Below are positions 22,095 to 51,503 of a stretch of 64,000 nucleotides of DNA, one piece after another. The notes below the pieces were generated by a model. The model ran no database searches. It saw nothing but the letters and a program-made list of their open reading frames with translations, and was not told where the DNA came from. Source of the stretch: Nafulsella turpanensis ZLM-10 (GTDB taxonomy: Bacteria > Bacteroidota > Bacteroidia > Cytophagales > Cyclobacteriaceae); the NCBI RefSeq assembly GCF_000346615.1, contig NZ_ANNU01000013.1:62001-126000 (forward strand). Reading direction: 5' to 3'. Made by a program: the position numbers and the translations under genes. Numbering within the stretch: the stretch's first letter is position 1; each line of letters starts with the position of its first letter.

Positions 22095-23114
22095 TCAGCC
22101 CCCGATTTTTATCATGCTGCGGTTATCGATGCTGGCACCATCTGTTTTCTCATAGGTTTCGCTGAATTGGCCGCCCATTTTAGCATGTTTGTTCCACATA
22201 CACATTTTAATGACCGGCACAATATCTTCTCCCCGGCGGAGTGTACCAAGGATATCTGCCTCATCTCTGGAGAAAAGGCAGTTTTTCATTTTACCATCTG
22301 CCGTAAGCCGCATGCGGTTGCAATCGCCGCAGAAGGGTTCGCTCATGGTGGTAATAAAGGCAAAGGTACCTACGGCATCGAGCAGCTTAAATTTTTTGGC
22401 GGTAGCATGCTTTTCATCTTTTAGTTTAATGAAAGATACCTCCTGCTCCACCCTGTCCAGCACCTGCCGTGCGGTGATGACATTTTCATTTTCCCAGCGG
22501 TTGCCATCGAAAGGCATAAATTCAATGAAGCGAACATACAGCGGGAGTTCGCGCGTAAGCTGGATAAAGTCCATCACTTCCTCATCATTCACCCCTTTCA
22601 TCAGCACCACATTCAGTTTTACGTGAATGCCTTCCTCTACCAGCAGCAGAATATTTTCCCATACTTTTTCGAGGCGGTCGCGGCGGGTAATTTTTTTGAA
22701 TTTATCGCGCTGCAGGGTATCGATACTCAGGTTAAGGGAGCGGATACCTGCTTTTTTGAAAACAGGAAGGAATCTATCTACCAGCACGCCATTGGTGGTA
22801 ATAGACAGTTCCACCGGTAATTTCCCCAGCTGCCCGATAATCTGCGGAGCCTCTTTTCTTACCAGTGGCTCCCCACCTGTGAGGCGAATTTTCTTCACAC
22901 CCAACTTCACAAAAGTCCTGGCAATCTGCTCTATCTCATCGGGCTGCATTAAGTGAGCATTGGGCATGCAGCTGATATTCTCTTCCGGCATACAGTAGGT
23001 ACACCTGAAATTGCAGCTATCGGTAAGGGAGAGCCGCAGGTAATCGTGCACCCGCTGGTGTTGGTCTGTTATCATACAATTTTCTAAAAGTTCGTGCTCT
23101 TCGTCCCGAATCAA
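22095..23114 (-). CDS. moaA: GTP 3',8-cyclase MoaA
   Basis: 339 residues, radical SAM. The SAM cluster motif C-x3-C-x2-C is at 34-41 (SCNFRCTYC), and a second cluster sits at the C-terminus (FCGDCNRMR...NCLF). The chain ends in Gly-Gly (MIKIGG), needed for activity in the family. It starts molybdopterin synthesis from GTP. The start at 23114 adds about 13 residues before the more usual Met at 23075; either is possible. Confidence 0.94.
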   Translation of the reverse strand: MIRDEEHELLENCMITDQHQRVHDYLRLSLTDSCNFRCTYCMPEENISCMPNAHLMQPDEIEQIARTFVKLGVKKIRLTGGEPLVRKEAPQIIGQLGKLPVELSITTNGVLVDRFLPVFKKAGIRSLNLSIDTLQRDKFKKITRRDRLEKVWENILLLVEEGIHVKLNVVLMKGVNDEEVMDFIQLTRELPLYVRFIEFMPFDGNRWENENVITARQVLDRVEQEVSFIKLKDEKHATAKKFKLLDAVGTFAFITTMSEPFCGDCNRMRLTADGKMKNCLFSRDEADILGTLRRGEDIVPVIKMCMWNKHAKMGGQFSETYEKTDGASIDNRSMIKIGG

Positions 23115-23138
23115 CTGTTCCGGCAGCTGTTGGTTCCC

Positions 23139-23450
23139 TTACTTGTACTTATTCTCCTCATGCATCCTTTGCTCCTTCTCCGGCACCTGCAATTTATTAT
23201 GGACAACACGGGAATCGGGCAGGTATTTTAGGAGCCACAATCCTGTTATAAAAAGAATAACGGAACCGATAAAAGCAGCCAGTGCCAGCTCCTGGTTAGC
23301 ATCCAATGCATTATTGAGTGCACTATACAACAACCATATCTGGATACTCAAAATGCCAATCAGCAGCATAATGATGCCTAGCATTATGGTATTCGTTTTA
23401 TTTGGGTGGACATCTCCCTGTCCTTCCCTGAATTTCCCTATATCGCTCAT
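23139..23450 (-). CDS. small two-helix membrane protein in nitrate/molybdenum cluster
   Basis: 103 residues with two membrane helices (about 22-42 IMLGIIMLLIGILSIQIWLL and 57-76 ALAAFIGSVILFITGLWLL). The C-terminal tail is charged. The Met at 23450 (MSDIGKFREGQ) is chosen because the longer frame to 23522 translates an 8-bp repeat array into HSIIHSFYHSV. It sits 24 bp before moaA and may be a small subunit or assembly factor of the nitrate reductase complex (inference). Family not recognised. Confidence 0.65.
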   Translation of the reverse strand: MSDIGKFREGQGDVHPNKTNTIMLGIIMLLIGILSIQIWLLYSALNNALDANQELALAAFIGSVILFITGLWLLKYLPDSRVVHNKLQVPEKEQRMHEENKYK

Positions 23451-23453
23451 GTT

Positions 23454-23506
23454 AGAATAAATGACTGAATGATAGAATGAGTGAATAATAGAATGATTGA
23501 ATAGAA
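23454..23506. repeat. 8-bp word array before the small membrane gene
   Basis: In-phase degenerate octamers: AATGACTG, AATGATAG, AATGAGTG, AATAATAG, AATGATTG. It runs up to the start codon at 23450 and creates a false N-terminal extension if translated. Confidence 0.65.
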
Positions 23507-23637
23507 GTCTGCTGAGGCTCATCTTCCTTCTGTTTTTCTATGCATCCTTATTAAATAGAAACATCTTCTTATGGTTTAATTAGCCCAGATGATTCCCTAT
23601 TACTAATAAAATATGGTGCCTTTCAGCCTTTCATTTC

Positions 23638-23665
23638 TAATTCATAATTTTTAATTCATAATTAT
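23638..23665. repeat. 7-bp word array after the Rieske gene
   Basis: Four in-phase heptamers, TAATTCA, TAATTTT, TAATTCA, TAATTAT, lie 9 bp past the Rieske stop. The same words recur before ccoG (37623-37657) and at 47484-47520. Confidence 0.6.
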
Positions 23666-23673
23666 GCAAAGCC

Positions 23674-24195
23674 CTAAGTGGTTACCTGGTCTCTGAAAGA
23701 AGTAACATACACCTTCCCATCCCGCACTACTACTCTCAGCTGGGGAAGGTCGCGCGGTGGTGGCCCTTGTAGCACCTCTCCGGTATCAGCACTAAACCAG
23801 CCGTTGTGGCAGGGACATTCAATTTTCTTAACCTCATCGCGGTATACTACGGCACAGGAAAGGTGGGTACATTTCTGTTCGAAAGCCCGCCACTCATCCT
23901 CTTCCAGGTGAATAAGGATATACGGAATTTCCTTGGTGCCTTTGATAGCGAACATGGTCATACCGCCCACCGGGACTTCAGAGGCATTGCAGACAAAATG
24001 CTCGCCTTCAATTTCCTTATCTGGGTAGGCAAAGGAATTGATGAGCACATAGCCATTGCCCAATGCCAGTCCGCCCGATAGCAGGCAGAGAAACTTGGCA
24101 AATTCGCGACGCGAAATATGGGTGGCTTCATCCTGACGGATAGGAAAATCACGCTTCCAGTTTGGCGGATTTTCGTCTTTTGGTGAGTAGGCCAT
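23674..24195 (-). CDS. Rieske [2Fe-2S] protein of the nitrate reductase cluster
   Basis: 173 residues. A cytosolic N-terminus, one membrane segment (about 31-52) and a Rieske domain with C-T-H (CTHLSC) and C-P-C-H (CPCHNGWF) motifs at about 111-134. The segment is preceded by SRREFAKFL, which resembles a Tat signal-anchor (Ser-Arg-Arg), so export of the folded cluster is likely. It would pass electrons from quinol or a b-type subunit. It lies just downstream of the four-cluster ferredoxin, but the gap (363 bp) holds the compound repeat structure. Confidence 0.88.
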   Translation of the reverse strand: MAYSPKDENPPNWKRDFPIRQDEATHISRREFAKFLCLLSGGLALGNGYVLINSFAYPDKEIEGEHFVCNASEVPVGGMTMFAIKGTKEIPYILIHLEEDEWRAFEQKCTHLSCAVVYRDEVKKIECPCHNGWFSADTGEVLQGPPPRDLPQLRVVVRDGKVYVTSFRDQVTT

Positions 24196-24300
24196 GGTTT
24201 AGTTGTTCGTTTTTCGTTGTTGGTTGTTCGTTATTTTTTGCGGCTGGTGGTTAGTGCCTGGTGCTGTTTGGTTTGTGGACTGATAATCCCCAATGGTCAT
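24196..24300. repeat. start-side word arrays, locus A (before Rieske gene)
   Basis: Next to the Rieske start codon: GTTGTTC, GTTTTTC, GTTGTTG, GTTGTTC, then CTGGTGG, TTAGTGC, CTGGTGC. In gene sense these are GAACAAC-type heptamers. Equivalent arrays precede ccoI, hemN and nosY. Confidence 0.65.
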
Positions 24301-24436
24301 TGTCATTGCGAGCAAAGCGAAGCAATCTCAGGCACATCAGTAGAATCATTTTCTGCTCCTTAGTGCTTTCTTTCACTTTGAAAGAGATTGCCGCACTCCG
24401 CAAAGCTCCGTTCGGGCCGCGTAGGCCGCAATGACA
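24301..24436. repeat. TGTCATTGCG inverted-repeat element, copy A
   Basis: 136 bp bounded by TGTCATTGCG and CGCAATGACA (10 bp perfect inverted termini), with subterminal AGCAATCTC and GAGATTGC. No ORF. Copies B, C and D share the ends, the inner GCAATCT boxes and GC-rich CCGCGTAGGC stretches. Confidence 0.85.
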
Positions 24437-24558
24437 GCATTCTGTGAGCTCTTCCTGTCCTGGTTCCTGGCTCTTGATTCTTTGCTCCTGAATCTGATAC
24501 TACCGTCTTTAGTCCATTGTCTCACGTCTCAAATCTCCTGTCTCCCATCTAAAATCTC
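24437..24558. repeat. stop-side word arrays, locus A (after ferredoxin gene)
   Basis: On the plus strand: CTGGTTC, CTGGCTC, TTGATTC, TTTGCTC, CTGAATC, then TCTCACG, TCTCAAA, TCTCCTG, TCTCCCA, TCTAAAA. The last array is in 7-bp phase from 24520 into the stop codon of the ferredoxin gene (24559). Confidence 0.65.
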
Positions 24559-25137
24559 CTAGTGCACCCGCAGCTCCGTACTGCCATTTGGCATCATTAC
24601 ATACACTTTAGTATTAACTGTCTGGTTTCCGAACTTGAATGTATTGACAGGCGTGCTGTGGGGACGCTTTTTTTGAATTTCTTCTCTTGGGCCGAAGTAA
24701 AGGGCACCACTTGGGCATACGGTGGCACACATTGGCTTTTTGCCGATACTGGTGCGGTCGTAGCAGAGGTTGCACTTCATCATGAGCTCAGCCGCTTCCA
24801 TTTTCTTCGGTACCCCGAACGGACAGGCCATTACGCAGTTGGAGCAGCCAATACAGAGGGATGTGTTGGCTGAGTGCACTACTCCATTGCTGTCTTTGGC
24901 AATGGCATCGGCCGGACAAACATTGGCACAGGCAGGGTCTTCGCAGTGCATACATACCTGCACGGTCGTTTGCACGGAATGGGCTCTGTCGACATAGTTT
25001 ACATGTATCATAGGCTCCTCTCCATTCGTTTCGCACTCGGCACAGGCGGCCTCGCAGGCACGACAGCCAATACAGCGCTGCATGTCCACAAAAAACTCCA
25101 TTTCCTGGTTAAAATTCTTTACTGGTTCTGATGCCAT
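24559..25137 (-). CDS. four-cluster [4Fe-4S] ferredoxin subunit of molybdoenzyme
   Basis: 192 residues with four Cys groups: [35 protein letters not shown] and CNLCYDRTS...CATVC. This is the electron-transfer subunit type seen beside DMSO-reductase-family enzymes (NarH/NrfC/HycB class). It starts 31 bp after the catalytic gene's stop. It should pass electrons between the membrane/Rieske parts and the molybdoenzyme. No signal peptide. Confidence 0.9.
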
Positions 25138-25168
25138 AAGTCTGTTTTTACAAATTCAAAAAAATATT

Positions 25169-27381
25169 TTATGCACTCTGGTATGCTTTCGATTCTGATG
25201 ATGGTGGTGCCTGTACTCCCGTAGGAATTAACTGGCAGGCACATACCTTAAATTCAGGCATTTTCGAAATAGGGTCCAGCGTACCAATCGTAAGCTGATT
25301 GGCTGATTTCGGTCCCGCCCAGTGGTAAGGAATAAAAACGGTATCTTTCCGGATGGTTGTGACCACCTGGGCAGGGAATTCGGCCTCCCCTCGTCGGGTT
25401 TTGACTTTTACGATTTCCCTGTCTTTTATTCCATATTGCTGTGCCAGGCTTGGGTGTATCTCTAATAGTGGCTCCGGGTACGGGTCTACCAAACGGCCAA
25501 TGCGCCGGGTTTGGGTACCACTCAGGTACTGGGAAACCACCCGTCCGGTCGTTAAAACAACAGGATAATCTTTATCAGTCGGTTCACTTGGCGGACGGTA
25601 AGGGGCCGGATTAAAGTGGGCTTTTCCATCTGCCGTGGCAAACTTTCGGTCTTCCCAGAGCCGGGGGGTACCCGGGTGATCAAGCGAAGGACAAGGCCAG
25701 AAAACTCCGTAGTTCTTGACAATTTTTTCGTAGGTGATACCGAAATAATCCGCAGTCCCGCCTTTGGAAGCAACCCTCAATTCATTGAAAATATCCTCGC
25801 TCTTTTTATAAGGGAATTTATCGCCGGCACCCAGGCGATGTGCCAGTTCAATAATGATAGAGGCATCCGTACGGGCATCGCCAGGCGGTGTCACTACCGG
25901 ATTTATTTTTACGACACGCCCTTCAGCAGTTGTACCCGTGCCTTCTTCTTCCTCATGCAGGGCGCCTGCCAGCACTACATCGGCATGGCGGGCAGTATCA
26001 TTCAGGAAGAAGTCGATGGCGACATAATATTCCAGTTTTTCCAAGGCCTCCCTTACCATATTATTGTTAGGCAGGGAAACAATCGGGTTAAAGCAGATAG
26101 ATAGTAAGCCCTTGATTTCGCCACGGTGGATGGCCTCCACCAGCTCATAAGCCGACAAGCCCTTACCCGGCATTTCCTTCTCATCTATACCCCAAACGTC
26201 CGCAATATACTTACGGTGCTCAGGATTCGTGATATCGCGGTTGCCCGGCAGCTGGTCGCACTTATGTCCGTGCTCACGGCCTCCCTGTCCGTTCCCCTGT
26301 CCTGTAATGGTGCCATACAATAAGGCTTTCCAAGACGGCCGGTTGCCAGCACCAGGTTGATGCAACCCAGCACGTTTTCAACTCCTTTGGAGTGCTGTTC
26401 AATACCCCGGGCGTGCAGCATAAAACTGGTATCGGTTTTTCCCCACATTTCAGCTGCCTTCCTGATACTTTCTGCTGGAATGCCAGTGATTTCTTCGGCC
26501 CACTCCAGGCTGTGGTTTTTCACTGAGGCAATGGTTTCATCAAAGCCGCTGGTGTGGTTATCGATAAAATCGTGGTCAAGCCAGTTATTTTCCACCAGGT
26601 GGTTTAGCATGGCACCATACAAAGCCGAATCGGTTCCGGGCTTTATTGGCAGGTGCAGGTCGGCGGTACGGGCAACTGGGGTAACCCGTGGGTCGACAAC
26701 AATAATTTTCGCTCCATTATCGCGTGCTTCCCAGATGTAGTGAATAAGCGTTGGAAAGGTCTCGCTGACATTTGAGCCGCAAATCATTATGACTTTAGCA
26801 TGCTTCAGGTCAGCCCAGCTGTTGGAGATACGGTCAAGGCCAAATGCTTTTTTATTCCCGCCACCGGCACTCACCATGCAAAGGCGGCCGTTATAATCTA
26901 GGTTAGCAGTTTTAAGAGCTACACGGGCGAATTTACCCATAAGGTAACTCTGCTCGTTGGTGAGCGAAACGCCCGAAAGCACTGCAAAAGCATCATTCCC
27001 GTAAGTGCTTTGAATACGCTTCATTTCCGAAACAGTCCTACTCATGGCAGTTTCCCAGTCTATCGGTCGAAAGCCCACTCCCTCCACTCTTTCAATGGGA
27101 GACATCAGGCGGTCGGGGTGGTTATTTTGCAGGTAGCGGGCTACTCCCTTAGGGCACATCCGGCCTTCATTGAAGGGGAACTCCATCCAGGGTTCAAAGC
27201 CTACAATTTTATTGTCTTTGGCCTTTAGTTGAATGCCGCACTGCATACCACAAAAGCAACAGTGGGTCTTCACCATCTTATCGGGCTCGGCATGCCCCTC
27301 AAAACCACCTTTGGGCGTATATGCTTTGTGGGGGCCGTATTGTTCTACAATTTTATCAACAGAAGTGGGCAGTTTTGCCAT
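25169..27381 (-). pseudogene. Nas-type nitrate reductase catalytic subunit, split by a frameshift
   Basis: Two overlapping ORFs, 26185-27381 (N-terminal part) and 25169-26365 (C-terminal part), each 398 codons, together match one molybdopterin oxidoreductase. The N-terminal part has a [4Fe-4S] site (Cys41, 44, 48, 76) and the Mo-ligand region NGRLCMVSAGG (Cys168). Its true sequence ends near ATGRLGKP; the family motif [16 protein letters not shown] then continues in the second frame. The shift is at about 26310-26330 (net -1). The C-terminal part includes the molydopterin-binding end ([11 protein letters not shown]). Nitrate is the likely substrate from the Cys ligand, cofactor genes and neighbours. 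Mutation or sequencing error cannot be separated here. Confidence 0.85.
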
Positions 27382-27389
27382 TTTTATAG

Positions 27390-27585
27390 TCGTTAGTCTT
27401 GAGTCCTTAGTCTTAAGCCCCTGATTGTTGCGTGCCGGTTATTTTTATTATTAAGTAGTCAGTATCAAGCATTAAGAGGTTTGTGCCATGCGCTTACATC
27501 TATTGTCCACCTTCCGACAGCTAGGTGGTCTAAAGTCAACCTGTCTCAAATCTCAAATCTCACGTCTCCTGTCTCCCATCTCCCG
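27390..27585. repeat. word arrays between membrane subunit and catalytic gene
   Basis: Near the catalytic start: TTAGTCT, TGAGTCC, TTAGTCT, TAAGCCC. Next to the membrane-subunit stop are six in-phase heptamers: TCTCAAA, TCTCAAA, TCTCACG, TCTCCTG, TCTCCCA, TCTCCCG (27544-27585), ending exactly at the stop codon. Unlike loci A-D there is no TGTCATTGCG element. Confidence 0.65.
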
Positions 27586-28641
27586 CTAACCGAAAAACTG
27601 CCCCTGCTGCTCACGTGCGGCAAACTGGGCTTTGGCAAGGGCGGCTCGTTTTCCTTCAGGGCTGTAATCAAGGTGGCTTCCGCCTCCCTCGAGGTCAAAG
27701 TTAAAATCGAGCTCTTTCGTTACCTTTTTCAGGTCATTCACATGAAGTTGAGTGGCAAACTCATGGCCGGTATGCGGACAAACCGCCATCCCTAAACGGG
27801 CACCTTCTTTCCGGTACACATTAGTACCCAGCTGTGCCGGTCGCTGAAATATATGAAAGAACTTTCCGAAGGGAATCCATACCAGGAACAGGATGACAGT
27901 TATGGCATGTGTAACAGACATAAACTCGAAGGTTTTGCCCTGCATAAAGGAGTAGTCGAAGGTTAAGCCCAAACCGGTAACTGAAATGGCCTGCAGTAAT
28001 ATGAGCGGCATCCAGTCGTCCTGAAAGGTTTGGGTTGCAATCAGTCCTCCGTTTTTTATGCGGCGACGCATCATTAAAACAGCACCAACGATGACTAAAA
28101 GGGAGCACCAGTTAAGGATATGGAAAGCATTGAAGGCAATAAAGCCTCCCAACTCAAATTCTGCCACATGAAAGCCAAACACATGGGCCTCGTAAATATC
28201 CAAGGTTCCGGGTTGTAGGGTAAAGTGAATCCAGCCGAAGGTTAGGGGAATAGTAACCATAAAAGCCAGCATACAGCCGGTAGCCAGCAGAAAGTGGCCC
28301 CACCAGCGGCTCCTTCCACGTGGGTAGATAAAGCGCTGGAACATGATATTCTTGACAAACTGCTGAATTACAAAGCCTAAGTAAGGGAAGAATCGCTTAC
28401 TGAACACAAACTTCCAGGTCCGCCGCCAGTAGAGCCGTGTTGGTGGCCGCTGTAGCCATACAGAATAGCGGTACATGATACCAAACACCGCAAAGATAGT
28501 TCCGAAGAGATAAGCAATCAGTGCCGCATCGAAGTTCTGCAGGTCGCGGGAGCCAACATATACCAGAGCTATTGCCAATAGCATGGCAATGGTGGCGTTT
28601 ATTAAAGCTTTTCTGTTTAAGGAATAAAAGATTCTAAACAT
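27586..28641 (-). CDS. membrane subunit, putative quinol-oxidising b-type protein
   Basis: 351 residues with about six membrane segments (near 14-30, 38-55, 120-140, 170-195, 213-240 and 255-275). Several His lie in or beside the segments (GWIHFTL, AFHILNW, THAITVI), possible heme ligands. The last 75 residues are soluble. It heads the nitrate reductase set (membrane, catalytic, ferredoxin, Rieske), where NarI or an NrfD-type subunit would be expected, but the sequence is not classic NarI. The role of anchoring the complex and taking electrons from menaquinol is inferred from context. Confidence 0.6.
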   Translation of the reverse strand: MFRIFYSLNRKALINATIAMLLAIALVYVGSRDLQNFDAALIAYLFGTIFAVFGIMYRYSVWLQRPPTRLYWRRTWKFVFSKRFFPYLGFVIQQFVKNIMFQRFIYPRGRSRWWGHFLLATGCMLAFMVTIPLTFGWIHFTLQPGTLDIYEAHVFGFHVAEFELGGFIAFNAFHILNWCSLLVIVGAVLMMRRRIKNGGLIATQTFQDDWMPLILLQAISVTGLGLTFDYSFMQGKTFEFMSVTHAITVILFLVWIPFGKFFHIFQRPAQLGTNVYRKEGARLGMAVCPHTGHEFATQLHVNDLKKVTKELDFNFDLEGGGSHLDYSPEGKRAALAKAQFAAREQQGQFFG

Positions 28642-28926
28642 AGAAGAGATGGTTTAAAATTCCACTCATGTACTACCTCATGAAATCGGCCACAACACAA
28701 CAGAAAAGATACAGCAATATAAAATCGGCCCTAAAGCCTCCTTGTATCTCTTTTAAGTCAGTTGTCCTAATCTTCTCAATACAATACAAAATTCAAAACA
28801 TTATAAAAACGTATCAACACTCTATATACCCGTTCTATTTAGAGAACAGATGCATTCTTTACTAAATGAAGTTCAAATTTACCTATCTGGCAGATCTAAA
28901 AGGATGACAATCCTCAGTAATTGAAA

Positions 28927-28938
28927 TGATAATTATCA
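28927..28938. promoter_or_regulatory. FNR-like palindrome TGAT-AATT-ATCA
   Basis: AATGAT-AATT-ATCATG lies in the 505-bp divergent gap (28642-29146), 286 bp from the nitrate reductase membrane gene and 209 bp from the SLAC1-type gene. I see no gene in the gap. Confidence 0.65.
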
Positions 28939-29029
28939 TGTTTGCTCCTGAAGTCTGCACTTCTTCCTGAAAATGCACCGCTCCTTCTCCGTCAGCCCCT
29001 GCTCCTGCCTTTCGTTTCTGGACATTTAT

Positions 29030-29041
29030 TGAGTAATATCA
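29030..29041. promoter_or_regulatory. weak FNR-like site TGAG-TAAT-ATCA
   Basis: TTGAG-TAAT-ATCAA is one base off TTGAT-N4-ATCAA and lies 106 bp before the SLAC1-type gene. It is weaker than the neighbouring site. Confidence 0.3.
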
Positions 29042-29146
29042 ATTCTTTTACTGAGTACCATCATTTATTATCCGGGCACAGGCTCCTTATTTTGCAAAAA
29101 CAAACTTGTTTACCCTTTACCCTGACAGCCAGCAACAAAAAATAAA

Positions 29147-30199
29147 ATGACGATTGTAGCCACCCTGAAAGAAGAAGCAAAGAGCCTTTTTCCCGCCTAC
29201 TTTGCCCTTGTAATGTCCACCGGAATTGTCTCGATTGCCGCTCATTTACTGGACTTCCCTTCTATTAGTAATGGGCTTTTCTGGCTCAATAATGCACTCT
29301 ACTTCTTTCTGTTGGGAATGCTCCTCTCACGGCTACTCTTTTATTTCCCTTCTTTTCTCGAAGATTTTAATTCACATGCAAAAGGGGCCGGCTTTTTTAC
29401 ACTGGTGGCCGGAACCTGTATATTAGGAACCCAGTATGTTCTCCTGAAAGGCTGGTTTATGCCAGCCATGGGACTCTGGTACTTCGGGCTTATTCTTTGG
29501 CTGGTCCTGATTTATGCCTTTTTCGTCATGATTATTGTGAAGAGAGAAAAGCCATCGCTGGAAAAGGGTATTAATGGAATCTGGCTGGTCATAGTGGTCG
29601 CTACACAGGCCGTTTCTGTTCTCGGAACTTTACTCTCTGAGCACCTGCCCTTCCCCACCGAAAGGGTCATTTTTCTTACCCTCTCCGGTTACCTGCTCGG
29701 CTGTATGCTCTACATCATCCTCATTACCCTTATTTTCTACCGCCTTGCATTTTACCCTATGCGGGCAGAAGAATTTGCACCTCCTTTTTGGATTAATATG
29801 GGAGCGGTCGCCATCAGCACCTTATCAGGAGCCACACTCATCCTGTTTATCAATGAAAATACAGGCTTTCTCGATTTTATTCCATTCCTGAAGGGCTTCA
29901 GCCTGTTTTTCTGGGCTACCGGCAGCTGGTGGATTCCCATTATCGTTATTCTGGGCATCTGGCGACACATTTATAACCACATCCCCCTCTTTTATCACCC
30001 CCAGTATTGGGGCATGGTATTCCCCCTTGGTATGTATACCGTCTGTACCTGGCGACTGGCTCAAGCCTTTGACCTTGACTACCTGAAGTTGATTCCCACC
30101 TACTTTATTTACCTGGCTTTTACTGCATGGGTACTTACCTTTCTGGGGCTGCTTTATAATTTTTTTCGGCTTTTATCTGGAAAAAAGATGCCTGCCTGA
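29147..30199 (+). CDS. TDT/SLAC1-family anion channel-like protein
   Basis: 350 residues with about ten membrane segments; it begins LFPAYFALVMSTGIVSIAAHLL, the signature of the tellurite-resistance/dicarboxylate transporter family (TehA, plant SLAC1). SLAC1 passes nitrate and chloride (known). Here it is divergent from the nitrate reductase operon and no NarK or NrtABC is seen, so it is a candidate nitrate (or nitrite) channel (inference). A cytochrome c gene follows 77 bp downstream. Other family members carry malate or sulfite. Confidence 0.85.
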   Translation: MTIVATLKEEAKSLFPAYFALVMSTGIVSIAAHLLDFPSISNGLFWLNNALYFFLLGMLLSRLLFYFPSFLEDFNSHAKGAGFFTLVAGTCILGTQYVLLKGWFMPAMGLWYFGLILWLVLIYAFFVMIIVKREKPSLEKGINGIWLVIVVATQAVSVLGTLLSEHLPFPTERVIFLTLSGYLLGCMLYIILITLIFYRLAFYPMRAEEFAPPFWINMGAVAISTLSGATLILFINENTGFLDFIPFLKGFSLFFWATGSWWIPIIVILGIWRHIYNHIPLFYHPQYWGMVFPLGMYTVCTWRLAQAFDLDYLKLIPTYFIYLAFTAWVLTFLGLLYNFFRLLSGKKMPA

Positions 30200-30276
30200 T
30201 GCTGCCAAAGCCAACTCATCGTTAAGGCCTTCGTAAAAAGGGTGTACGATAGTTTAAAACTTTAACTTTTTTATCT

Positions 30277-30798
30277 ATGCATTTACCGATACTAAAAAAG
30301 TACGGCACCATTTTTTTCCTGAGCCTGTTCCCGTTCGCATTTACCGCCTGCGGTGGCGGAACTGAAGAAGGTGAGGTTACAGAGGAGACCGGAGTGGAAG
30401 AAGTCGGAATTTCCGCAGAAGAAGCCCTGGCAAATCCCATGGAAGTGAAAGGCGTTGGCCCTATACATGAACTTACCCTGGAAGCAGCCATTAACCAGGA
30501 ACTTGCCACGGAAGGCGAGGCTATTTTTAGCCAGTACTGCACCCCCTGCCACAAAATTGAGGAACGCTATATCGGACCAGCAATTGGTGATGTTACTACC
30601 CGCCGGAGCCCGGAATGGATTATGAATATGATTCTGAACCCTGAGCAGATGGTAAAGGAAGACCCCATTGCCAAGCAACTGCTGGCCGAGTATATGTCGC
30701 CCATGGCCGACCAGAATTTAACAGAAGAGCAGGCCAGAGCCATCCTTGAATATTTCCGCACCCTCAGCGAAACTAATAACGGGGAAGCCGAATCTTAA
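30277..30798 (+). CDS. monoheme cytochrome c lipoprotein
   Basis: 173 residues. Signal peptide with lipobox FTACG (Cys near 25), an acidic linker and a heme motif CTPCHK with the conserved stretch EERYIGPA and candidate axial Met in YMSPMADQN. It should sit as a lipoprotein in the periplasm. The last 75 residues are close to identical to the cytochrome next to nosZ (56710), sharing EWIMNMILNPEQMVKED and LEYFRTL, so the two are recent duplicates. It could feed the nitrate or terminal oxidase chain (inference). Confidence 0.85.
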   Translation: MHLPILKKYGTIFFLSLFPFAFTACGGGTEEGEVTEETGVEEVGISAEEALANPMEVKGVGPIHELTLEAAINQELATEGEAIFSQYCTPCHKIEERYIGPAIGDVTTRRSPEWIMNMILNPEQMVKEDPIAKQLLAEYMSPMADQNLTEEQARAILEYFRTLSETNNGEAES

Positions 30799-30816
30799 AA
30801 ATATTTTCAGAAACAG

Positions 30817-30860
30817 AAAAGGCTGTGCCGCCTGAGTGAGCGACACAGCCTTCTTTATTT
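30817..30860 (+). terminator. terminator after cytochrome c lipoprotein
   Basis: AAGGCTGTG (30819-30827) pairs with CACAGCCTT (30844-30852), followed by CTTTATTTAT. It separates this unit from the convergent ccoI. Confidence 0.75.
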
Positions 30861-30941
30861 ATACATGGCTGACTGATTTTCCTCTCTTCTGAGGGGGTCA
30901 GACTGAACATTTTCTCCTTTATCTGCTGCACCAACCTTTTA

Positions 30942-33389
30942 TCAGGCAGCCTTATTCATCGCAGGCACTGAGCCTGCCGCCACCTCTGCCCGGCTGTACT
31001 TTTGCTTTTCCAGCTTCCGGGCCATTAGCTGCACTCCCAGCGTTACAAAGCCCACTATGGTAACGGAGCTTAGCGGCATTAAAATGGCACAGACAATGGG
31101 ACTAAGCTGGGCACTTACCGCGAAACTTAAGCCGATGATGTTGTAGAGAAATGAAAGCAGGAAAGCGATATTAATGATTTTCCGGCTCCCTTTTGCCAGC
31201 TGCATCGACTTCAGAATTTTATCGAAACTCTTCGCATCGAGGATAGCATCGCAGGCAGGTGAAAAGTGGTAAATATCGTCGCTCACGCTAATACCTACAT
31301 TACTTTCCTGCAGGGCACCGGCATCGTTCAGTCCATCGCCAATCATCAGCACTTTTCTTCCTTTTTCCTTCAGCTTTCGGATATAGCTAAGCTTACCCAT
31401 CGGCTGCTGGTTAAAATGAAGTTCATCGAATAAGGGCTGCAGCTTGGTCCGCTCGCGGTCATTATCGCCACTCAGCAGGTGCAGCTGGTACTGATGCTCT
31501 CTTAATTCTGCCTGCAGGTCGGCCAATCCTTCGCGGTACTGGCTGTTAAACTGGTAAAAACCTAAAGACTGCCCATCGCGGCTTACATACACCCTGGTAG
31601 CTCCCCTATCGGCTGCTTCTACATGGGTTCCGGTAAATGCCGCAGAACCCAGTCGATACTCCTGCCCGTTTACTTTTCCACTCAGGCCGGCACCTGCTTC
31701 CTCTTTAAAATCTTCTACTGCTAAAACAGGTACCATTTCTCCTAAGCTGGCGTAAATAGACTGGCTCAAAGGGTGGGTGGAGTTTCGGGTGAGCGAGCGA
31801 ACAGCCAGCAACATATTATAATCGGTAGTGCCGGTAAACTGCAGGCTGCCTTTACTTTTGTGTGTAATAGTTCCTGTCTTATCAAAAACAAGGGTATCAA
31901 TATTCGCGAGGGCTTCCACGGCCTCTGCATTTTTGAGATACAGCCCCCAGCGGCCAAGCACCCGAAGGGTATTGCCCAGGGCAAAAGGAATAACGAGTGC
32001 CAGGGCACAGGGGCAGGCCACAATAAGCACGGCGGTGAGGGCATTCCACATCTTGCCCGGGTCGACAAAAAACCAGAAGGCAAGGGTGGCCAGGCTCAGT
32101 ATTAAGATAAACCAGGTAAAGCGTTTGCTGAGTCCCTGCACCATGGCCGACAGCTGGAATTTATTTCCCTTTCTGAACACTTCCTGGTTCCAGAGCTGGG
32201 TGAGGTAGCTGCTCTCCACCGGCTTCTGAATACTTACTTCCAGCATGCCACCGATTTGTCTACCGCCTGCATATAAGAAGTCGCCACTTTGCTTATTTAC
32301 CGGCTCCGATTCGCCAGTTACAAAAGCATAATCAATTTTTCCTTCTCCTTTCAGCAAAATAGAGTCGGCAGGAATCAGCTCCTGGTTTCGCACCAGAATA
32401 CGGTCACCCGTTTGCAGTTCCTTCAGCAGTACGGTTTCCTCTTTTCCCTCTTTAATTCGGGTGGCGGCCAGGGGGAAATAGCTGTTATAATCGCGTTCGA
32501 AGCTCAATGCCTCGTAGGTTTTGCTCTGGTACCATTTGCCAATGAGCAGAAAGAAGACAAGGCCAGCCAGACTATCCATATAGCCTGCACCTGTCTGGCT
32601 CAGCATTTCGTATAAGCTGCGGCCGAAAATGGTGAGTATGCCAAGGGAAATGGTTAGGTCGAGGCTCAGGTATTTATAGCGGATGCCCCGCCAGGCTGAA
32701 ATGTAAAAGTCCTTTGCAGAATACAGCACCACCGGCAGCACCAGCAGCATGTTCAGGTAAGCAAAAAACTGCTTGTAAGACTCCTCTACCAGCGACTTGC
32801 TATCGAGGTATTCGGGCAGGCTCAACATCATGATATTACCAAAGCAAAAGCCCGCTACCCCCAGCTGAATGTAAAAGCTGCGGCTAGTATTTTTCTTCTT
32901 CTCCTTCCCGCTTTCCAGCTTAATATCCGGAGCATAGCCCAGGCGACTGAGCAGCTCTGCCAGCTGACGAAGGCTCAGTCCTTTTTCCGACCAACTCAGG
33001 CTTACCTCCTTTTTCAGAAAATTAACGGTAGAAGAATAAACATTCCCATCCAGGCGGTTCAGGTTCTCGAGCAGCCAGATACAGGAACTACAATGGATGG
33101 CAGGAATATAAAAAGTAGTCTTACTAATTCGACCATCGGTAAACTGAATCAGCGATTTCCTTATCTCCTCCAGTTCCAGGAAAGCCCATTTTTCGGCATT
33201 CTCCTCCCCTCTTTTAGAGCCGGGCGCTTTTTCCATCTCGTAGTAGCCGGCCAGGTCATTCCCTTTCAGGATATCATACACCGTATGGCAGCCCTGGCAG
33301 CAAAATGAATGTTGGTCGGCTATAATGGGCGTTTCAGGACAGTCTTCCCCGCAATGGTAACAGCTTTGTTTTTCGAGTATTTTGGACAT
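30942..33389 (-). CDS. ccoI: CcoI/FixI copper-exporting P-type ATPase
   Basis: 815 residues. N-terminal Cys-rich metal-binding part (CYHCGEDC, CCQGC), an HMA domain with HCSSC, about eight membrane helices, the CPC copper site (Cys459 in VACPCALAL), the phosphorylated Asp503 in DKTGT and the hinge GDGLND. CcoI loads copper for cbb3 oxidase assembly. A longer frame to 33530 exists but its first 47 residues come from the 7-bp word array; MSKILEKQSCYHCG fits the family. It is transcribed away from ccoS. Confidence 0.92.
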   Translation of the reverse strand: MSKILEKQSCYHCGEDCPETPIIADQHSFCCQGCHTVYDILKGNDLAGYYEMEKAPGSKRGEENAEKWAFLELEEIRKSLIQFTDGRISKTTFYIPAIHCSSCIWLLENLNRLDGNVYSSTVNFLKKEVSLSWSEKGLSLRQLAELLSRLGYAPDIKLESGKEKKKNTSRSFYIQLGVAGFCFGNIMMLSLPEYLDSKSLVEESYKQFFAYLNMLLVLPVVLYSAKDFYISAWRGIRYKYLSLDLTISLGILTIFGRSLYEMLSQTGAGYMDSLAGLVFFLLIGKWYQSKTYEALSFERDYNSYFPLAATRIKEGKEETVLLKELQTGDRILVRNQELIPADSILLKGEGKIDYAFVTGESEPVNKQSGDFLYAGGRQIGGMLEVSIQKPVESSYLTQLWNQEVFRKGNKFQLSAMVQGLSKRFTWFILILSLATLAFWFFVDPGKMWNALTAVLIVACPCALALVIPFALGNTLRVLGRWGLYLKNAEAVEALANIDTLVFDKTGTITHKSKGSLQFTGTTDYNMLLAVRSLTRNSTHPLSQSIYASLGEMVPVLAVEDFKEEAGAGLSGKVNGQEYRLGSAAFTGTHVEAADRGATRVYVSRDGQSLGFYQFNSQYREGLADLQAELREHQYQLHLLSGDNDRERTKLQPLFDELHFNQQPMGKLSYIRKLKEKGRKVLMIGDGLNDAGALQESNVGISVSDDIYHFSPACDAILDAKSFDKILKSMQLAKGSRKIINIAFLLSFLYNIIGLSFAVSAQLSPIVCAILMPLSSVTIVGFVTLGVQLMARKLEKQKYSRAEVAAGSVPAMNKAA

Positions 33390-33511
33390 TAATTCGTTGG
33401 TCGTTGGTCGTTGCTGGTTGTTCGGTATTAGTGACTGGTGGTTTGTGGGTATTAAGTAGACAGTAGTAAGTATTAAGAATCTGGAATATGAGCCGACTTT
33501 TAGATGGTTAC
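33390..33511. repeat. start-side word arrays, locus B (before ccoI)
   Basis: Beside the ccoI start: GTTGGTC, GTTGGTC, GTTGCTG, GTTGTTC, then ATTAGTG, ACTGGTG, GTTTGTG, then TATTAAG, TAGACAG, TAGTAAG, TATTAAG, all in 7-bp phase. It is the longest set of the start-side words. Confidence 0.7.
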
Positions 33512-33654
33512 TGTCATTGCGAGGAGGCACGACGAAGCAATCTGTTGCAGGTTGTTACTATTTATCTTCCCCTTTACAGCCCCTTTTAGGTTGCTTCACT
33601 CCGCCGCGCCGCGTAGGCTAGGGCTACCTTCGGGCCGCGTAGGCCGCAATGACA
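33512..33654. repeat. TGTCATTGCG inverted-repeat element, copy B
   Basis: 143 bp from TGTCATTGCG to CGCAATGACA with inner GAAGCAATCT and TTGCTTCACT boxes and two near copies of CCGCGTAGGC. No ORF. Confidence 0.85.
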
Positions 33655-33712
33655 GCATTCTATAAGCTTCTCCTGTCCTGCTTACTGGCTTATGGTTCCT
33701 GATTAAGAAACC
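33655..33712. repeat. distal word array, locus B
   Basis: CTGCTTA, CTGGCTT, ATGGTTC, CTGATTA follow the element in 7-bp phase, after the shared junction GCATTCTATAAGCTTCTCCT. The remaining 33713-33950 holds nothing convincing; a 61-codon ORF at 33768-33953 has no support. Confidence 0.55.
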
Positions 33713-33950
33713 CATCCCACACCTATCCATCCAGCCTCAAAAATCCTTACAAAATCGGCGGATAACCATGAGGGCGGTCAGCAGGAAAGATGATTTTTAT
33801 CAGGAAGTGGAAAGTAACTGCCTTTGCAGCTCTGGTGGAGCCATTTTTCTTTCTGAAGTCAGCTTCTCTCAGACTTTGCTCTCCCACTCCGCACATCGGC
33901 CCTGCCCTCTCGAATTATTATTAAAAGCTGATGAAGGTCACCTTTCCTTG

Positions 33951-33962
33951 TGATTTCAATCA
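33951..33962. promoter_or_regulatory. FNR-like palindrome TGAT-TTCA-ATCA
   Basis: TGTGAT-TTCA-ATCATA, centred about 57 bp before the ccoS start, at the head of the cbb3 oxidase operon. cbb3 operons are classic FNR/FixK targets. Confidence 0.7.
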
Positions 33963-34013
33963 TATTCACCCCCTCTTTTTTAGCCCAATTTTGTGATACT
34001 GAATGAAAGAACT

Positions 34014-34220
34014 ATGAGTGCATTATTTATTCTTATCGCCATTAGTCTGCTGGTTGCCCTGGGTTTTCTGGCTGCCTTTTTATGGGCCACCCGCTCCGGG
34101 CAATACGACGATGACTATACCCCGGCTGTCCGCATGCTGTTCGATGAAGGACTAAGAAAGCCGGATGCAGGAAGCAGAAATCAGGAGAATGAAAAAGAAA
34201 ATAGGAATACCACGATTTAA
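34014..34220 (+). CDS. ccoS: cbb3 oxidase assembly protein CcoS
   Basis: 68 residues from the ATG at 34014. One membrane helix (about 2-24, ALFILIAISLLVALGFLAAF) then WATRSGQYDDDYTPAVRMLFDE, the CcoS pattern. CcoS is needed for copper and heme insertion into cbb3 oxidase (known). The frame's earlier ATG at 33993 would add seven residues. It heads the cco operon, 55 bp before ccoNO. Confidence 0.9.
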   Translation: MSALFILIAISLLVALGFLAAFLWATRSGQYDDDYTPAVRMLFDEGLRKPDAGSRNQENEKENRNTTI

Positions 34221-34275
34221 AATAGAACCCATAAATCAACCAATAAACCAATTTAAGCAAATCATTGAATAACTT

Positions 34276-36483
34276 ATGAGTACGCAAGGAGCAATTCTGG
34301 AGAGACCCGACCACTACAGCGGAAAGCTGGAGCTCGACCGTTTCTCTTACGACAACAACATTGTGCGGCTGTTTGCCACCGCCACCATGGTATGGGGGGC
34401 AATTGGCATGCTGGTTGGCCTGCTGGCAGCCCTTGAGCTGGTATTCCCCGGCCTCAATGGCGGAATCGAATACATTACCTTCGGCCGTATCCGCCCACTG
34501 CATACCAATGCCGTAATCTTTGCCTTTGTGGGCAACGGTATCTTTACAGGGGTATATTACTCGCTGCAAAGGCTCTGCAAAACCCGCATGTACAGCGATG
34601 CCCTGAGTAATATTAATTTCTGGGGATGGCAGCTCATCATCCTTTCTGCCGTAATAACCCTACCGCTGGGCTATACTTCCTCAAAAGAGTATGCCGAGCT
34701 GGAATGGCCTATTGACATTGCCATTACCATTATGTGGGTGGTATTCGGTTACAATATGTTTGCTACCATTCTGCAACGCCGTACCCGTCACCTGTATGTG
34801 GCCATCTGGTTTTACATTGGTACCTTTGTAACCGTAGCCGTTCTGCATGTGGTGAACTCTTTTGAGCTGCCTATCAGCTTTATGAAGAGCTACAGCTTTT
34901 ATGCCGGTGTACAGGATGCTTTAGTACAGTGGTGGTATGGCCACAATGCGGTTGCATTTTTCCTTACCACTCCTTACCTGGGCCTGATGTACTACTTTGT
35001 ACCAAAGGCAGCCAACCGCCCGGTGTATTCTTATAAACTTTCCATTATCCACTTCTGGGCTCTTATTTTTCTTTACATCTGGGCCGGCCCGCACCACCTG
35101 CTCTACAATGCCCTGCCTGACTGGGCACAGTCGCTCGGTGTAGTGTTTAGCGTGATGCTCCTTGCCCCCAGCTGGGGTGGTATGCTCAATGGCCTTTTAA
35201 CCCTCCGTGGTGTATGGGACAGGGTTCGTGAAGAGCCTGTTCTGAAATTCTTTGTAGTGGCCCTTACCGCTTATGGGATGGCTACTTTCGAAGGCCCCAT
35301 GCTTTCACTCAAAAACGTAAACGCTATCAGCCACTTTACTGACTGGACCATTGCCCACGTACACGTAGGTGGCCTTGGCTGGAATGGTATGCTCACCTTT
35401 GGGATGCTCTACTGGCTGATGCCAAAAATGTACCAGACCAAACTGTTCTCTACCAAGCTGGCGAATACCCACTTCTGGATTGCTACCCTGGGTATACTGT
35501 TCTACGCCCTTCCGCTTTACTGGGCCGGCTTTACCCAAAGCTTAATGTGGAAAGAGTTTACGCAGGAAGGCATGCTGGCCTACCCTAACTTCCTCGAAAC
35601 CGTTACCCAACTCAAGCCAATGTATGCAGCCCGTGCCTTTGGTGGCGGTATGTATATTGTGGGTGTGCTCATTATGGCCTATAACCTGGTAATGACTGCC
35701 AAACAGGGCAGCTTCCTAAAAAACGAACCAGCCGAAGCCGCTCCGCTGAAAGATGTGTACGAAAAACCACAGGGCGAGCACTGGCACCGCTGGATTGAAC
35801 GCCGCCCCGTTCAGCTGATGGTAGGTAGCTTAATCGTAATCCTGATTGGCGGGATGGTGGAAATGATTCCGACCTTCCTGGTAGAATCCAACGTACCAAC
35901 CATCGCGAGTGTGAAACCATATACATCGCTCGAATTGCACGGTCGCGACCTCTACATAAAGGAAGGCTGTAATAACTGCCACTCTCAAATGGTGAGGCCG
36001 TTCCGCAGCGAAACCGAACGGTATGGCGAGTATGCCAAAGCCGGGGAGTTTGTATACGACCACCCCTTCCTCTGGGGCTCCAAACGTACCGGTCCTGACC
36101 TGCTCCGCTTAGGTGGCAAGTACCCCGACAGCTGGCACTACCACCACATGCTCGACCCAGAATCTATGTCGCCAGGTTCTATCATGCCTGCTTACCCCTG
36201 GATGTTCGAGAATGAGATTGAAGTGGAAACCACTGAAGCCAAAATCTCCGCCATGCGTAGCCTTGGAGTGCCTTATCCTGAAGGGTATGAAGAAGAGGCA
36301 GTTGCCGACATGAAACTGCAGGCCGAGGAAATTACCGCTAACCTGGCAGAGAGTGGCATACAGGTAAGCAGCGATAAAGAAATCATAGCCCTAATTGCCT
36401 ACCTGCAACGCCTCGGCACCGACATTAAAGCCGATGCGGATAAGGAAGTGAAGCCCTACGAAATAGTACCTGAAAATAAGTAG
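34276..36483 (+). CDS. ccoNO: fused cbb3 oxidase subunits CcoN-CcoO
   Basis: 735 residues. Residues 1-480 are CcoN: His76 (PLHTNAV), Cu-site His223 (YGHNAV), His273/274 (AGPHHLL) and His361/363 (AHVHVGG). After a linker comes CcoO: one membrane helix (about 515-535) and a heme c motif at 565 (CNNCH) with candidate axial Met (GSIMPAYPWM). The enzyme reduces O2 to water with high affinity in the inner membrane. In most bacteria the two are separate; fusion is common in Bacteroidota. Confidence 0.95.
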   Translation: MSTQGAILERPDHYSGKLELDRFSYDNNIVRLFATATMVWGAIGMLVGLLAALELVFPGLNGGIEYITFGRIRPLHTNAVIFAFVGNGIFTGVYYSLQRLCKTRMYSDALSNINFWGWQLIILSAVITLPLGYTSSKEYAELEWPIDIAITIMWVVFGYNMFATILQRRTRHLYVAIWFYIGTFVTVAVLHVVNSFELPISFMKSYSFYAGVQDALVQWWYGHNAVAFFLTTPYLGLMYYFVPKAANRPVYSYKLSIIHFWALIFLYIWAGPHHLLYNALPDWAQSLGVVFSVMLLAPSWGGMLNGLLTLRGVWDRVREEPVLKFFVVALTAYGMATFEGPMLSLKNVNAISHFTDWTIAHVHVGGLGWNGMLTFGMLYWLMPKMYQTKLFSTKLANTHFWIATLGILFYALPLYWAGFTQSLMWKEFTQEGMLAYPNFLETVTQLKPMYAARAFGGGMYIVGVLIMAYNLVMTAKQGSFLKNEPAEAAPLKDVYEKPQGEHWHRWIERRPVQLMVGSLIVILIGGMVEMIPTFLVESNVPTIASVKPYTSLELHGRDLYIKEGCNNCHSQMVRPFRSETERYGEYAKAGEFVYDHPFLWGSKRTGPDLLRLGGKYPDSWHYHHMLDPESMSPGSIMPAYPWMFENEIEVETTEAKISAMRSLGVPYPEGYEEEAVADMKLQAEEITANLAESGIQVSSDKEIIALIAYLQRLGTDIKADADKEVKPYEIVPENK

Positions 36484-36488
36484 AAAAA

Positions 36489-36680
36489 ATGCTCAAGTTC
36501 ATCAAACATCATATGGAAACCATCATGGGGATAGAAATCTTCCCCATGATTTCCCTGCTCATCTTTTTCATCTTCTTCACGGTACTCATTCTGTGGGTAT
36601 ACCGCTCCGACAAGGGCTATAATGCCCGCATGGCACAGCTTCCGTTGGAAGAAGAGGATGATGCTCAGCTGTTTAATTAA
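36489..36680 (+). CDS. ccoQ: CcoQ-like small cbb3 oxidase subunit
   Basis: 63 residues with one membrane helix (about 17-40, EIFPMISLLIFFIFFTVLIL) and a short cytosolic tail (VYRSDKGYNARMAQLP). It matches the CcoQ/FixQ pattern, including the Y-R motif after the helix. It begins 6 bp after ccoNO and ends 7 bp before ccoP, so it is in the operon. Confidence 0.82.
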   Translation: MLKFIKHHMETIMGIEIFPMISLLIFFIFFTVLILWVYRSDKGYNARMAQLPLEEEDDAQLFN

Positions 36681-36687
36681 ACGAATC

Positions 36688-37578: not shown

Positions 37579-37658
37579 TGCAGAATTAAGAATGAAGAAA
37601 GAGGGAATCACATGGTGCTCGTAATTCATCATTCTTAATTTTTAATTCATCATTCACT
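37579..37658. repeat. word arrays between ccoP and ccoG
   Basis: After the ccoP stop: GAATTAA, GAATGAA, GAAAGAG. Before ccoG: AATTCAT, CATTCTT, AATTTTT, AATTCAT, CATTCAC (37623-37657), then ATG at 37659. No inverted-repeat element lies between them. Confidence 0.6.
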
Positions 37659-39071: not shown

Positions 39072-39098
39072 ACGTTCCTAAAATTATTCAGCCAAAGA

Positions 39099-39132
39099 AA
39101 AAGGTCCGGCCAAATGGTTGGGCCTTTCTTGC
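39099..39132 (+). terminator. hairpin after ccoG
   Basis: AAAGGTCC (39100-39107) pairs with GGGCCTTT (39120-39127) around CGGCCAAATGGT, followed by CTTGCTT. It may partly separate ccoG from ccoH. Confidence 0.55.
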
Positions 39133-39250
39133 TTCCCGAAAAAAACTGACAACAATCAGCTTTCCACTTGATACCCGTCATTCGCCCCCTCCTCTTTTCC
39201 ACCCATTTTTGTAAGGTAAATAAAAGAGAAATTGAGGCTGATTTTCTCAA

Positions 39251-39291
39251 TACCCACTACTCAATACTCAATACTCAATACTCAATATATG
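39251..39291. repeat. 7-bp array running into the ccoH start codon
   Basis: CTACTCA, ATACTCA, ATACTCA, ATACTCA, ATATATG in strict 7-bp phase (39257-39291). The last word contains the ATG of ccoH. The same CTACTCA/ATACTCA words occur after nosF (51472-51495). Confidence 0.75.
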
Positions 39292-40427: not shown

Positions 40428-40537
40428 GGCTTATAGACAGGAGATTTGAGACTTGAAACAATAGACAATAGATTCTGGAATTGGAGACATGAATCAAGAA
40501 TCAGGAGTCAAGAAACAAGATGGAGCCCATTAAAGAC
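40428..40537. repeat. stop-side word arrays, locus C (after TauE/SafE gene)
   Basis: After the stop codon: CAGGAGA, TTTGAGA, CTTGAAA, CAATAGA, CAATAGA, later TTGGAGA, CATGAAT, CAAGAAT, CAGGAGT, CAAGAAA. The words CAGGAGA and TTTGAGA also follow the ferredoxin and membrane-subunit stops when read in gene sense. Confidence 0.65.
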
Positions 40538-40662
40538 TGTCATTGCGAACGTAGCCTTAGCGGAGTGAAGCAATCTCTTTCGATTCGAAGAGGAACAACA
40601 AAGAGGAAAGTACCAATGTGTAGGAGATTGCTTCAGGCTCCTACGTCGCCTTCGCAATGACA
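40538..40662. repeat. TGTCATTGCG inverted-repeat element, copy C
   Basis: 125 bp, TGTCATTGCG to CGCAATGACA, with inner GAAGCAATCTC and GAGATTGCTTC. It is the shortest of the four and the most symmetric. Confidence 0.85.
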
Positions 40663-40759
40663 ATAGCCATGAAAGTATTCTGAAAATCGATTAGGTAAAT
40701 CAATCCTTGCTCAGCCCGGACGACGAACGAACAACCAACAACGACCAACAAGCACTAAA
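40663..40759. repeat. start-side word array, locus C (before hemN)
   Basis: GACGAAC, GAACAAC, CAACAAC, GACCAAC, AAGCAC run to within 6 bp of the hemN ATG. Same words as before the Rieske, ccoI and nosY genes in gene sense. Confidence 0.65.
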
Positions 40760-51145: not shown

Positions 51146-51261
51146 GGTAGTAGTTCGTTGATGGTTGGTCGTTGCTGGTTGTTCGTGGCTGGTTTTTAGT
51201 ACTAAGTACTAAGTACTAAGTATCAAGATTTTGGCACACAAGCGGGTATTCTCATGGTTAT
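51146..51261. repeat. start-side word arrays, locus D (before nosY)
   Basis: Next to the nosY start: GGTTGGTC, GTTGCTG, GTTGTTC, then TACTAAG, TACTAAG, TACTAAG, TATCAAG in perfect 7-bp phase. Same words as locus B, more regular. Confidence 0.7.
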
Positions 51262-51410
51262 TGTCATTGCGAGGAGGCCATTAGGCCGACGTGGCAATCT
51301 TTAGCCTATTTGTACTATCATTTTCTGCTCTTTTTAAATTTACAGCTTCCTATTTAGAGATTGCTTCACTCCGCCGCGCCGCGTAGGCTATGGCTAAGTT
51401 CGCAATGACA
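51262..51410. repeat. TGTCATTGCG inverted-repeat element, copy D
   Basis: 149 bp, TGTCATTGCG to CGCAATGACA, with inner GGCAATCTTTAG and GAGATTGCTTC. Shares ATCATTTTCTGCTC with copy A and CTCCGCCGCGCCGCGTAGGC with copy B. Confidence 0.85.
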
Positions 51411-51503
51411 GCGTTTTATTGGCTCCTTCTGTCCTGGCTCCTGACTGTTGATTCCTCGCTCTCTTCTATCTCACTACTCAATACTCACTACTCAATACTA
51501 ATT
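51411..51503. repeat. stop-side word arrays, locus D (after nosF)
   Basis: CTGGCTC, CTGACTG, TTGATTC, CTCGCTC, then CTACTCA, ATACTCA, CTACTCA, ATACTAA, ending near the nosF stop at 51504. Confidence 0.65.

Follow-up and report, generated by a model that had tools for sequence, protein, structure and literature searches.

Four compound intergenic structures, at loci A–D of the stretch of DNA analysed here (the window, 64,000 nt on contig 13 of genome G000; 4.80 Mb, 109 contigs, 99.85% complete), are on balance probably copies of a non-autonomous, dispersed and polar repeat, built from a central pair of hairpins, two boxes and two unlike heptad arms. The unit keeps a constant internal order and polarity, is dispersed, stands in mixed orientation to genes and is present in gaps that are closed or otherwise filled in relatives. 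A preliminary description of this DNA had proposed one inherited or inserted unit with a role as a 5' leader; the first half of that proposal is supported in the form of an insertion or replacement between genes, and the second is not supported by the comparison of copies given below.

Anatomy of the unit in the window

Loci A–D each hold a copy of one polar unit of ~320–360 bp, which in element sense reads left arm (RRGANNN)n, box AGCYNNTAAACYGC, hairpin pair, box RTNNCCATTGGRGA and right arm (NRCNANN)n. At its centre, two TGTC-tagged REP-like hairpins stand inverted (head-to-head) on either side of an asymmetric, polar core, and both boxes are conserved and 14 bp long. In good copies the RRGANNN words of the left arm are first of GAGACAT type and then of AGGAGCC type, a TGTCATTGCGA...AAGCAATCT hairpin leads into the polar core (CTTTCGANTTGAAAGGGAGTGTCAAAG...) and on to an inverted hairpin ending CGCAATGACA, and the right arm passes from TACTTAG through CAGCCACTA to AACNANC words. 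The parts of the four units are as follows.

24196..24286, minus strand: unit A, right heptad arm (AACNANC type), a few nt 5' of the ATG of a Rieske-like gene
24287..24300, minus strand: unit A, 3' box (ATGACCATTGGGGA)
24301..24436, minus strand: unit A, inverted pair of TGTC-tagged REP-like hairpins with polar core
24437..24450, minus strand: unit A, 5' box (AGCTCACAGAATGC)
24451..24558, minus strand: unit A, left heptad arm (GAGAYNN, then AGGANCC), beginning at the stop codon of the upstream gene
33390..33497, minus strand: unit B, right heptad arm, adjoining the start of a P-type ATPase (ccoI-like) gene
33498..33511, minus strand: unit B, 3' box (GTAACCATCTAAAA)
33512..33654, minus strand: unit B, REP-like inverted pair with core
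33655..33668, minus strand: unit B, 5' box (AGCTTATAGAATGC)
33669..33712, minus strand: unit B, short left arm (AGGANCC-type words only)
40428..40523, plus strand: unit C, left heptad arm, 3' of the stop codon of 39723–40427
40524..40537, plus strand: unit C, 5' box (AGCCCATTAAAGAC)
40538..40662, plus strand: unit C, REP-like inverted pair with core
40663..40676, plus strand: unit C, 3' box (ATAGCCATGAAAGT)
40677..40759, plus strand: unit C, right heptad arm, reaching the hemN ATG
51146..51247, minus strand: unit D, right heptad arm, ten heptads from TACTTAG to the nosY ATG in a single phase (by eye)
51248..51261, minus strand: unit D, 3' box (ATAACCATGAGAAT)
51262..51410, minus strand: unit D, REP-like inverted pair with core
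51411..51424, minus strand: unit D, 5' box (AGCCAATAAAACGC)
51425..51503, minus strand: unit D, left heptad arm (TATTGAG/TAGTGAG, then AGGANCC), 3' of the nosF stop

The repetition of a compound structure at four loci, as first described, is real: TGTCATTGCG...CGCAATGACA pairs lie at 24301–24436, 33512–33654, 40538–40662 and 51262–51410, and single-end matches with one mismatch permitted number 11 in the window against 3.3 expected, a count reached in 0 of 100 shuffles. The flanking words, their order and the junctions are likewise common to the loci, with the 5' junction pattern holding in 14 of 22 copies (1.4% of random intergenic sites) and the 3' pattern in 15 of 20 (3.2%), both patterns having been drawn up post hoc from inspected copies. 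The flanks are degenerate heptad arrays and not the plain low-complexity sequence that had been considered for them. Not every copy is complete: unit B lacks the GAGAC-type part of its left flank, and copies without recognisable arms exist, e.g. C20:78849 and C21:77.

On both strands the central element of A–D is predicted to form a long hairpin (z −2.0 to −4.4, and −2.9 to −5.3 on the reverse strand; 60 shuffles each). Taken whole, unit D also folds below its shuffles (z −3.9), and units A–C do not (z 0.5, −0.9 and −1.3). No Rfam family was matched at gathering score in the window. Elsewhere in the window, a TGTCATTCCCGCAGGG stretch at 47014–47530 is possibly a further type of REP-like repeat.

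The genes beside A–D are functionally related (respiration). NCBIfam matches support the hemN, NosD, cbb3 and P-type ATPase families, and those of the Rieske-like gene are weak (best 2.5e-13). The nosF product matches ABC ATPases in general and that of nosY matches nothing, so both names rest on gene order and on 46–60% identity to such pairs elsewhere; the best named relatives of nosF are from Bacteroidota, the first being a Roseivirga MAG (58% identity).

Dispersal, orientation and insertion between genes

The search of the whole genome for the end pair that the preliminary description had suggested returned eight exact full-length pairs and 34 single TGTCATTGCG sites. A profile built from 12 copies, searched against 864 kb of contiguous stretches and the loci around known sites, located 29 places, 26 of them at E<=1e-3. 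Two of these 26 copies are without a called neighbour; of the other 24, 11 run with both neighbours (forward), 8 run against both (reverse), 3 lie between converging genes and 2 between diverging ones. Forward and reverse copies do not differ significantly in number (p=0.65), and some of these orientations may be wrong because a longest-ORF rule was used to call the neighbours. The constant polarity towards the downstream gene that had been described is therefore a local property of the window. Random orientation and an absence of shared flanking words had been named together as outcomes that would speak against a common unit, and only the first was found.

Mixed orientation also bears on the reading of the unit as a 5' leader with a regulatory role common to respiration genes, which we regard as very improbable. 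The right arms of A, C and D do end within ~10 nt of a start codon, that of B faces a ccoI-like start, and the relatedness of the window genes would suit such a role. Against this stand the 24 oriented copies, the three between convergent genes in particular, and the position of unit D, which splits nosF from nosY, genes that overlap in most relatives read. Moreover, TAnnTTTG, which we take to be the Bacteroidetes −7 consensus, is absent from A–D on either strand. If the four apparent leaders are copies of a dispersed element, then nosY, hemN, ccoI and the Rieske-like gene need not have a control system in common on its account.

Orientation to genes is mixed, and orientation within the unit is not. 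Among the 26 copies at E<=1e-3, 7 have left-type arrays in the 5' flank and none has them in the reverse arrangement; 15 have right-type arrays in the 3' flank and one has a reverse match, which falls within the left arm (TAGTGAG) of C19:104574. A search for AACNANC arrays had supplied four of the copies, two on C5 and two on C30; without them the counts are 11 of 22 for right-type and 6 of 22 for left-type arrays. Arm type thus follows core orientation in copies of the element.

Comparison with relatives shows what such gaps look like without the unit. Here nosF and nosY are 358 bp apart, with the whole of unit D between them. In relatives (55 with a nosF match, the best 30 loci compared, the window's own among them), the two genes overlap in 23 of 29 and are separated by 14 nt or less in 27 of 29, the largest gaps being 52 nt (G001, of the same genus) and 104 nt. 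In a named collection (72 nosF loci fetched; 60 examined, with the 12 weakest left out; both genes placed in 58), the gap is at most 5 nt in 57 of 58 (median −8, i.e. overlapping) and 66 nt in the remaining one. The two large gaps among the relatives, L285 in G001 (52 nt) and L292 in G139 (104 nt), are AT-rich, seemingly partly palindromic and without the element.

The element is missing from all seven orthologous gaps read in G001. Sizes in G000 and G001, respectively, are 358 and 52 bp at locus D, ~351 and 92 bp at locus C and ~528 and 420 bp at locus B, and 317/87, 411/109, 389/53 and 217/99 bp at the other four. When window positions 22300–42200 were compared with G001 by BLAST, none of the 40 matches listed covered an element of A–C, several lay over the heptad arms of A and C, and none held orthologous genes for locus A. 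Among 58 relatives the exact pair was found in only one other genome, of a different family and with an unlike interior. Of 395 Bacteroidota genomes, a pattern of 3' end plus box matched this one alone, and here just two of the copies, and is too strict to exclude the element elsewhere; one match in a viral contig was put down to chance, neither a second end nor heptads being seen in its surroundings. In the searches of relatives and the G001 comparison, the exact pair turned up almost exclusively in this lineage, and the arm words are common to relatives.

No target-site duplication was evident when junctions were compared by eye, and Y1_Tnp (PF01797) had no match at E<=0.01 in G000, a control search being positive in 6 of 14 genomes. 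The copies differ a lot, and there is accordingly no sign of recent movement. A candidate for an old promoter stretch kept beside the unit at C19:104456 was rejected as not significant (score 25, against a maximum of 30 in 200 shuffles).

We suggest that the element would have spread as a whole unit: gaps filled by arm words without hairpins occur here and in relatives, so gap fillings may have replaced one another by recombination or strand switching between arms, the alternative being a transposase that was lost or acts in trans. Those same hairpin-free arms, found in this genome and in relatives where the exact pair was not, are what one would expect if the hairpin pair alone were mobile and had inserted one-way into gaps already bearing unlike arms, and such insertion could also produce the coupling of arm to core. 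At C19:111424–111670, in addition, a heptad stretch is common to G001, whose gap is without the element (local score 55, maximum 45 in 200 shuffles). We nevertheless think mobility of the hairpins alone rather unlikely, given that arm type tracks the core beyond mere strand composition, that copies share conserved boxes lying outside the hairpins, and that the G001 gaps at C8:46153 and C10:69254 carry different heptad words with no significant alignment (17 and 29, against at most 32 and 42 in shuffles). As for the effect of the dispersed unit, a transcribed REP pair would fold into a stable inter-cistronic hairpin, and would be expected to act as is thought for REP/BIME, in protecting mRNA 3' ends or reducing read-through, and not as a gene-specific leader.

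Heptad arms within and beyond the unit

Period 7 is enriched in intergenic DNA at large: lag 7 stands out in 40 of 514 regions, lag 14 in 34 and lag 21 in 25, and any other lag between 2 and 24 in 2–15. Of 59 genomes, 16 have three-unit GAGAY arrays, G000 among them. They reach 30–74 matches in G000, G001, G002 and G027, where a backwards control gave 0; the remaining genomes have few matches, and the control yields as many. AACNANC arrays occur in 14 of 59 genomes from several families, and their backwards control matches about equally often; we attribute this to a shift of phase that lets the reversed pattern match the very same arrays, which makes the control uninformative.

Across seven genomes from two families, AACNANC arrays have their 3' end nearer the gap edge in 62 of 67 cases (median distance 10 nt) and GAGAY arrays their 5' end in 60 of 62 (median 11 nt), 4 of 71 and 7 of 69 arrays, respectively, having been dropped as lying in a called ORF or without a neighbour; the arrays were chosen by pattern, in G000 only partly so. 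A strict grammar of the arms in gene sense was rejected. When arrays no more than 40 nt from a called gene (150 aa or longer) are counted, 21 AACNANC arrays point toward a start and 27 toward a stop (p=0.47), and 35 GAGAYNN arrays follow a stop and 13 a start (p=0.002). The rule that holds for the arms is polarity to the gap edge.

Within arrays, every base occurs at position 4 of AACNANC and GAGAYNN varies at positions 5–7, and the fixed letters hardly change, a contrast that is partly circular because arrays were chosen by those letters. Distinct units number 74 among 408 and 80 among 338. Other vocabularies were seen: three co-directional gaps in G033 (L091, L092 and L094) carry GTTNGTT heptads after the stop and AACNANC before the next start, together forming a hairpin, and the gap at window positions 37579–37658 is an AT-rich heptad gap (TTAATTC/TTCATCA words) whose layout is kept in the same-genus genome.

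Change between species was followed in the parts of G000 and G001 that were compared, which have 64 neighbouring gene pairs in common, 53 of them with a gap of at least 40 nt in at least one genome and with flanking proteins of 75% mean identity. Alignment-gap positions set aside, arrays taken from G000 (G002 for one pair) match the sister at 176 of 210 constant and 82 of 137 variable positions. For arrays taken from G001 (G107 for one pair) the figures are 113 of 136 and 248 of 338, several segments there spanning both arms and blurring the two classes. At one gene end common to G002 and G107, the array is present in the former and absent in the latter. The convergent gap L109, opposite C10:64941–65036, has arrays at both edges in the same phase in both species; the TCTC letters of its right arm are the same in both and those in between are mostly different (by eye), and long hairpins form in both species at this one locus (predicted z −7.9 and −7.5). 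Four gaps between convergent genes in relatives (L109, L110, L305 and L137) consist almost entirely of GAGAY/RTCTC heptads and fold into interrupted stems of ~30–40 base pairs.

All 15 heptad gaps picked for folding had z of −3.4 or lower. In an unchosen survey, values below −4 were reached by 14 of the 43 heptad gaps and by 41 of the 380 others (p=0.0003), with 21 gaps of intermediate lag-7 score left out, 5 of which were below −4; the idea that every heptad gap is a hairpin was dropped, as 29 of the 43 did not reach this value. The 43 heptad gaps comprise 34 co-directional, 7 convergent and 2 divergent, and the 380 others 246, 75 and 59. With regard to a possible role of heptad hairpins as terminators, convergent gaps are thus not in excess (7 of 43 against 75 of 380), and divergent gaps are fewer among heptad gaps (p=0.065).

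Selection, biased repair and plain slippage are all candidates for what keeps the arms. Slippage acts too: (CTCAATA)n stands in ~six units directly 5' of the ATG of a small gene at window positions 39246–39287, having grown from the one unit present in the same-genus genome. That the arms are ordinary products of slippage, simple sequence repeats since decayed, is a possibility we hold to be less likely than not. It accords with PMC4679880, in whose introduction heptanucleotide repeats are the commonest class in most genomes bearing long 5–11 nt repeats, and with position 7 of GAGAYNN, which matches the neighbouring unit at 0.62 against 0.36 expected. Positions 5 and 6 of the same word are near independent of the neighbour (0.39 and 0.29 against 0.34 and 0.29). 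For position 4 of AACNANC the match to the neighbour (0.46 against 0.27 expected) is lost when units are shuffled within the array (0.49), and so reflects the array and not the neighbour. The placement of arrays at gap edges with fixed polarity also argues against slippage, as does the more frequent match between species at constant positions (176 of 210 against 82 of 137), an excess that homogenised repeats could likewise give.

More speculatively, and in our judgement improbable as it stands, the arms could be a lineage-wide, degenerate 7-nt mark of gene edges, with the fixed part kept, the free part scrambled and the phase held by the edge, some gaps keeping a long heptad hairpin as its letters are rewritten, and the REP unit of this genome riding as a mobile passenger. 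Such a mark would call for a reader with a 7-nt pitch, whether an RNA- or DNA-binding protein or a step of replication or repair. Whatever keeps them, degenerate heptads locked to gene edges make up part of the intergenic DNA in this Bacteroidota order, and they may confuse the prediction of promoters and terminators.

Comparison with known repeats

Literature on heptanucleotide repeats, REP dimers and the arm and element strings yielded nothing closer than PMC3733652, PMC6006769, PMC3116915 and PMC4679880; there was no paper for four arm strings, and for short element strings the matches listed were off subject. The closest precedent of the unit is the CGTC-tagged REP group described in PMC3733652. 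The TGTCATTGCG ends, at 34 sites genome-wide, carry the terminal tag in its TGTC variant and a stem opening with AT, and are paired as inverted dimers with tags outside; the group is also mostly intergenic, includes Bacteroidetes among its phyla and has no dedicated transposase, and in H. neapolitanus its dimers lie within constant palindromic flanks. Members have, in the same account, a stem of 8–9 bp, a loop of 4–5 nt and a CCA-like tail, with exceptions permitted, whereas the hairpins here are longer, with a perfect stem of ATTGC/GCAAT only, a variable interior and a tail of CT (by eye). The core here is polar, moreover, and the flanks are heptad arrays in place of a short palindrome. We call the element REP-like, and not a member of the CGTC/TGTC-REP group, because the stem, loop and tail differ.

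With REPIN/BIME mobilised by RAYT (PMC6006769, PMC3116915), the unit shares two inverted REP-like ends and one long hairpin, and differs in that G000 holds no Y1 transposase match that could represent a cognate enzyme. Its 10-bp TGTCATTGCG ends are terminal inverted repeats, as MITEs have.

The arms invite comparison of another kind. Cyanobacterial STRR and long simple sequence repeats are, like the arms, heptanucleotide tandem repeats, mostly in exact copies; we know of no gene-edge polarity in them. The TAACTGA heptamer repeats of PMC4679880 are intergenic 7-nt tandem units, often just 5' of start codons and present in some Bacteroidetes. There one exact heptamer was followed, whereas the units here have the intergenic period of seven without (near-)exact copies of one unit, being degenerate, of several types and found at both start and stop edges. 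The arms therefore resemble known heptamer repeats in period only, and their edge polarity and division into fixed and free letters may be new.
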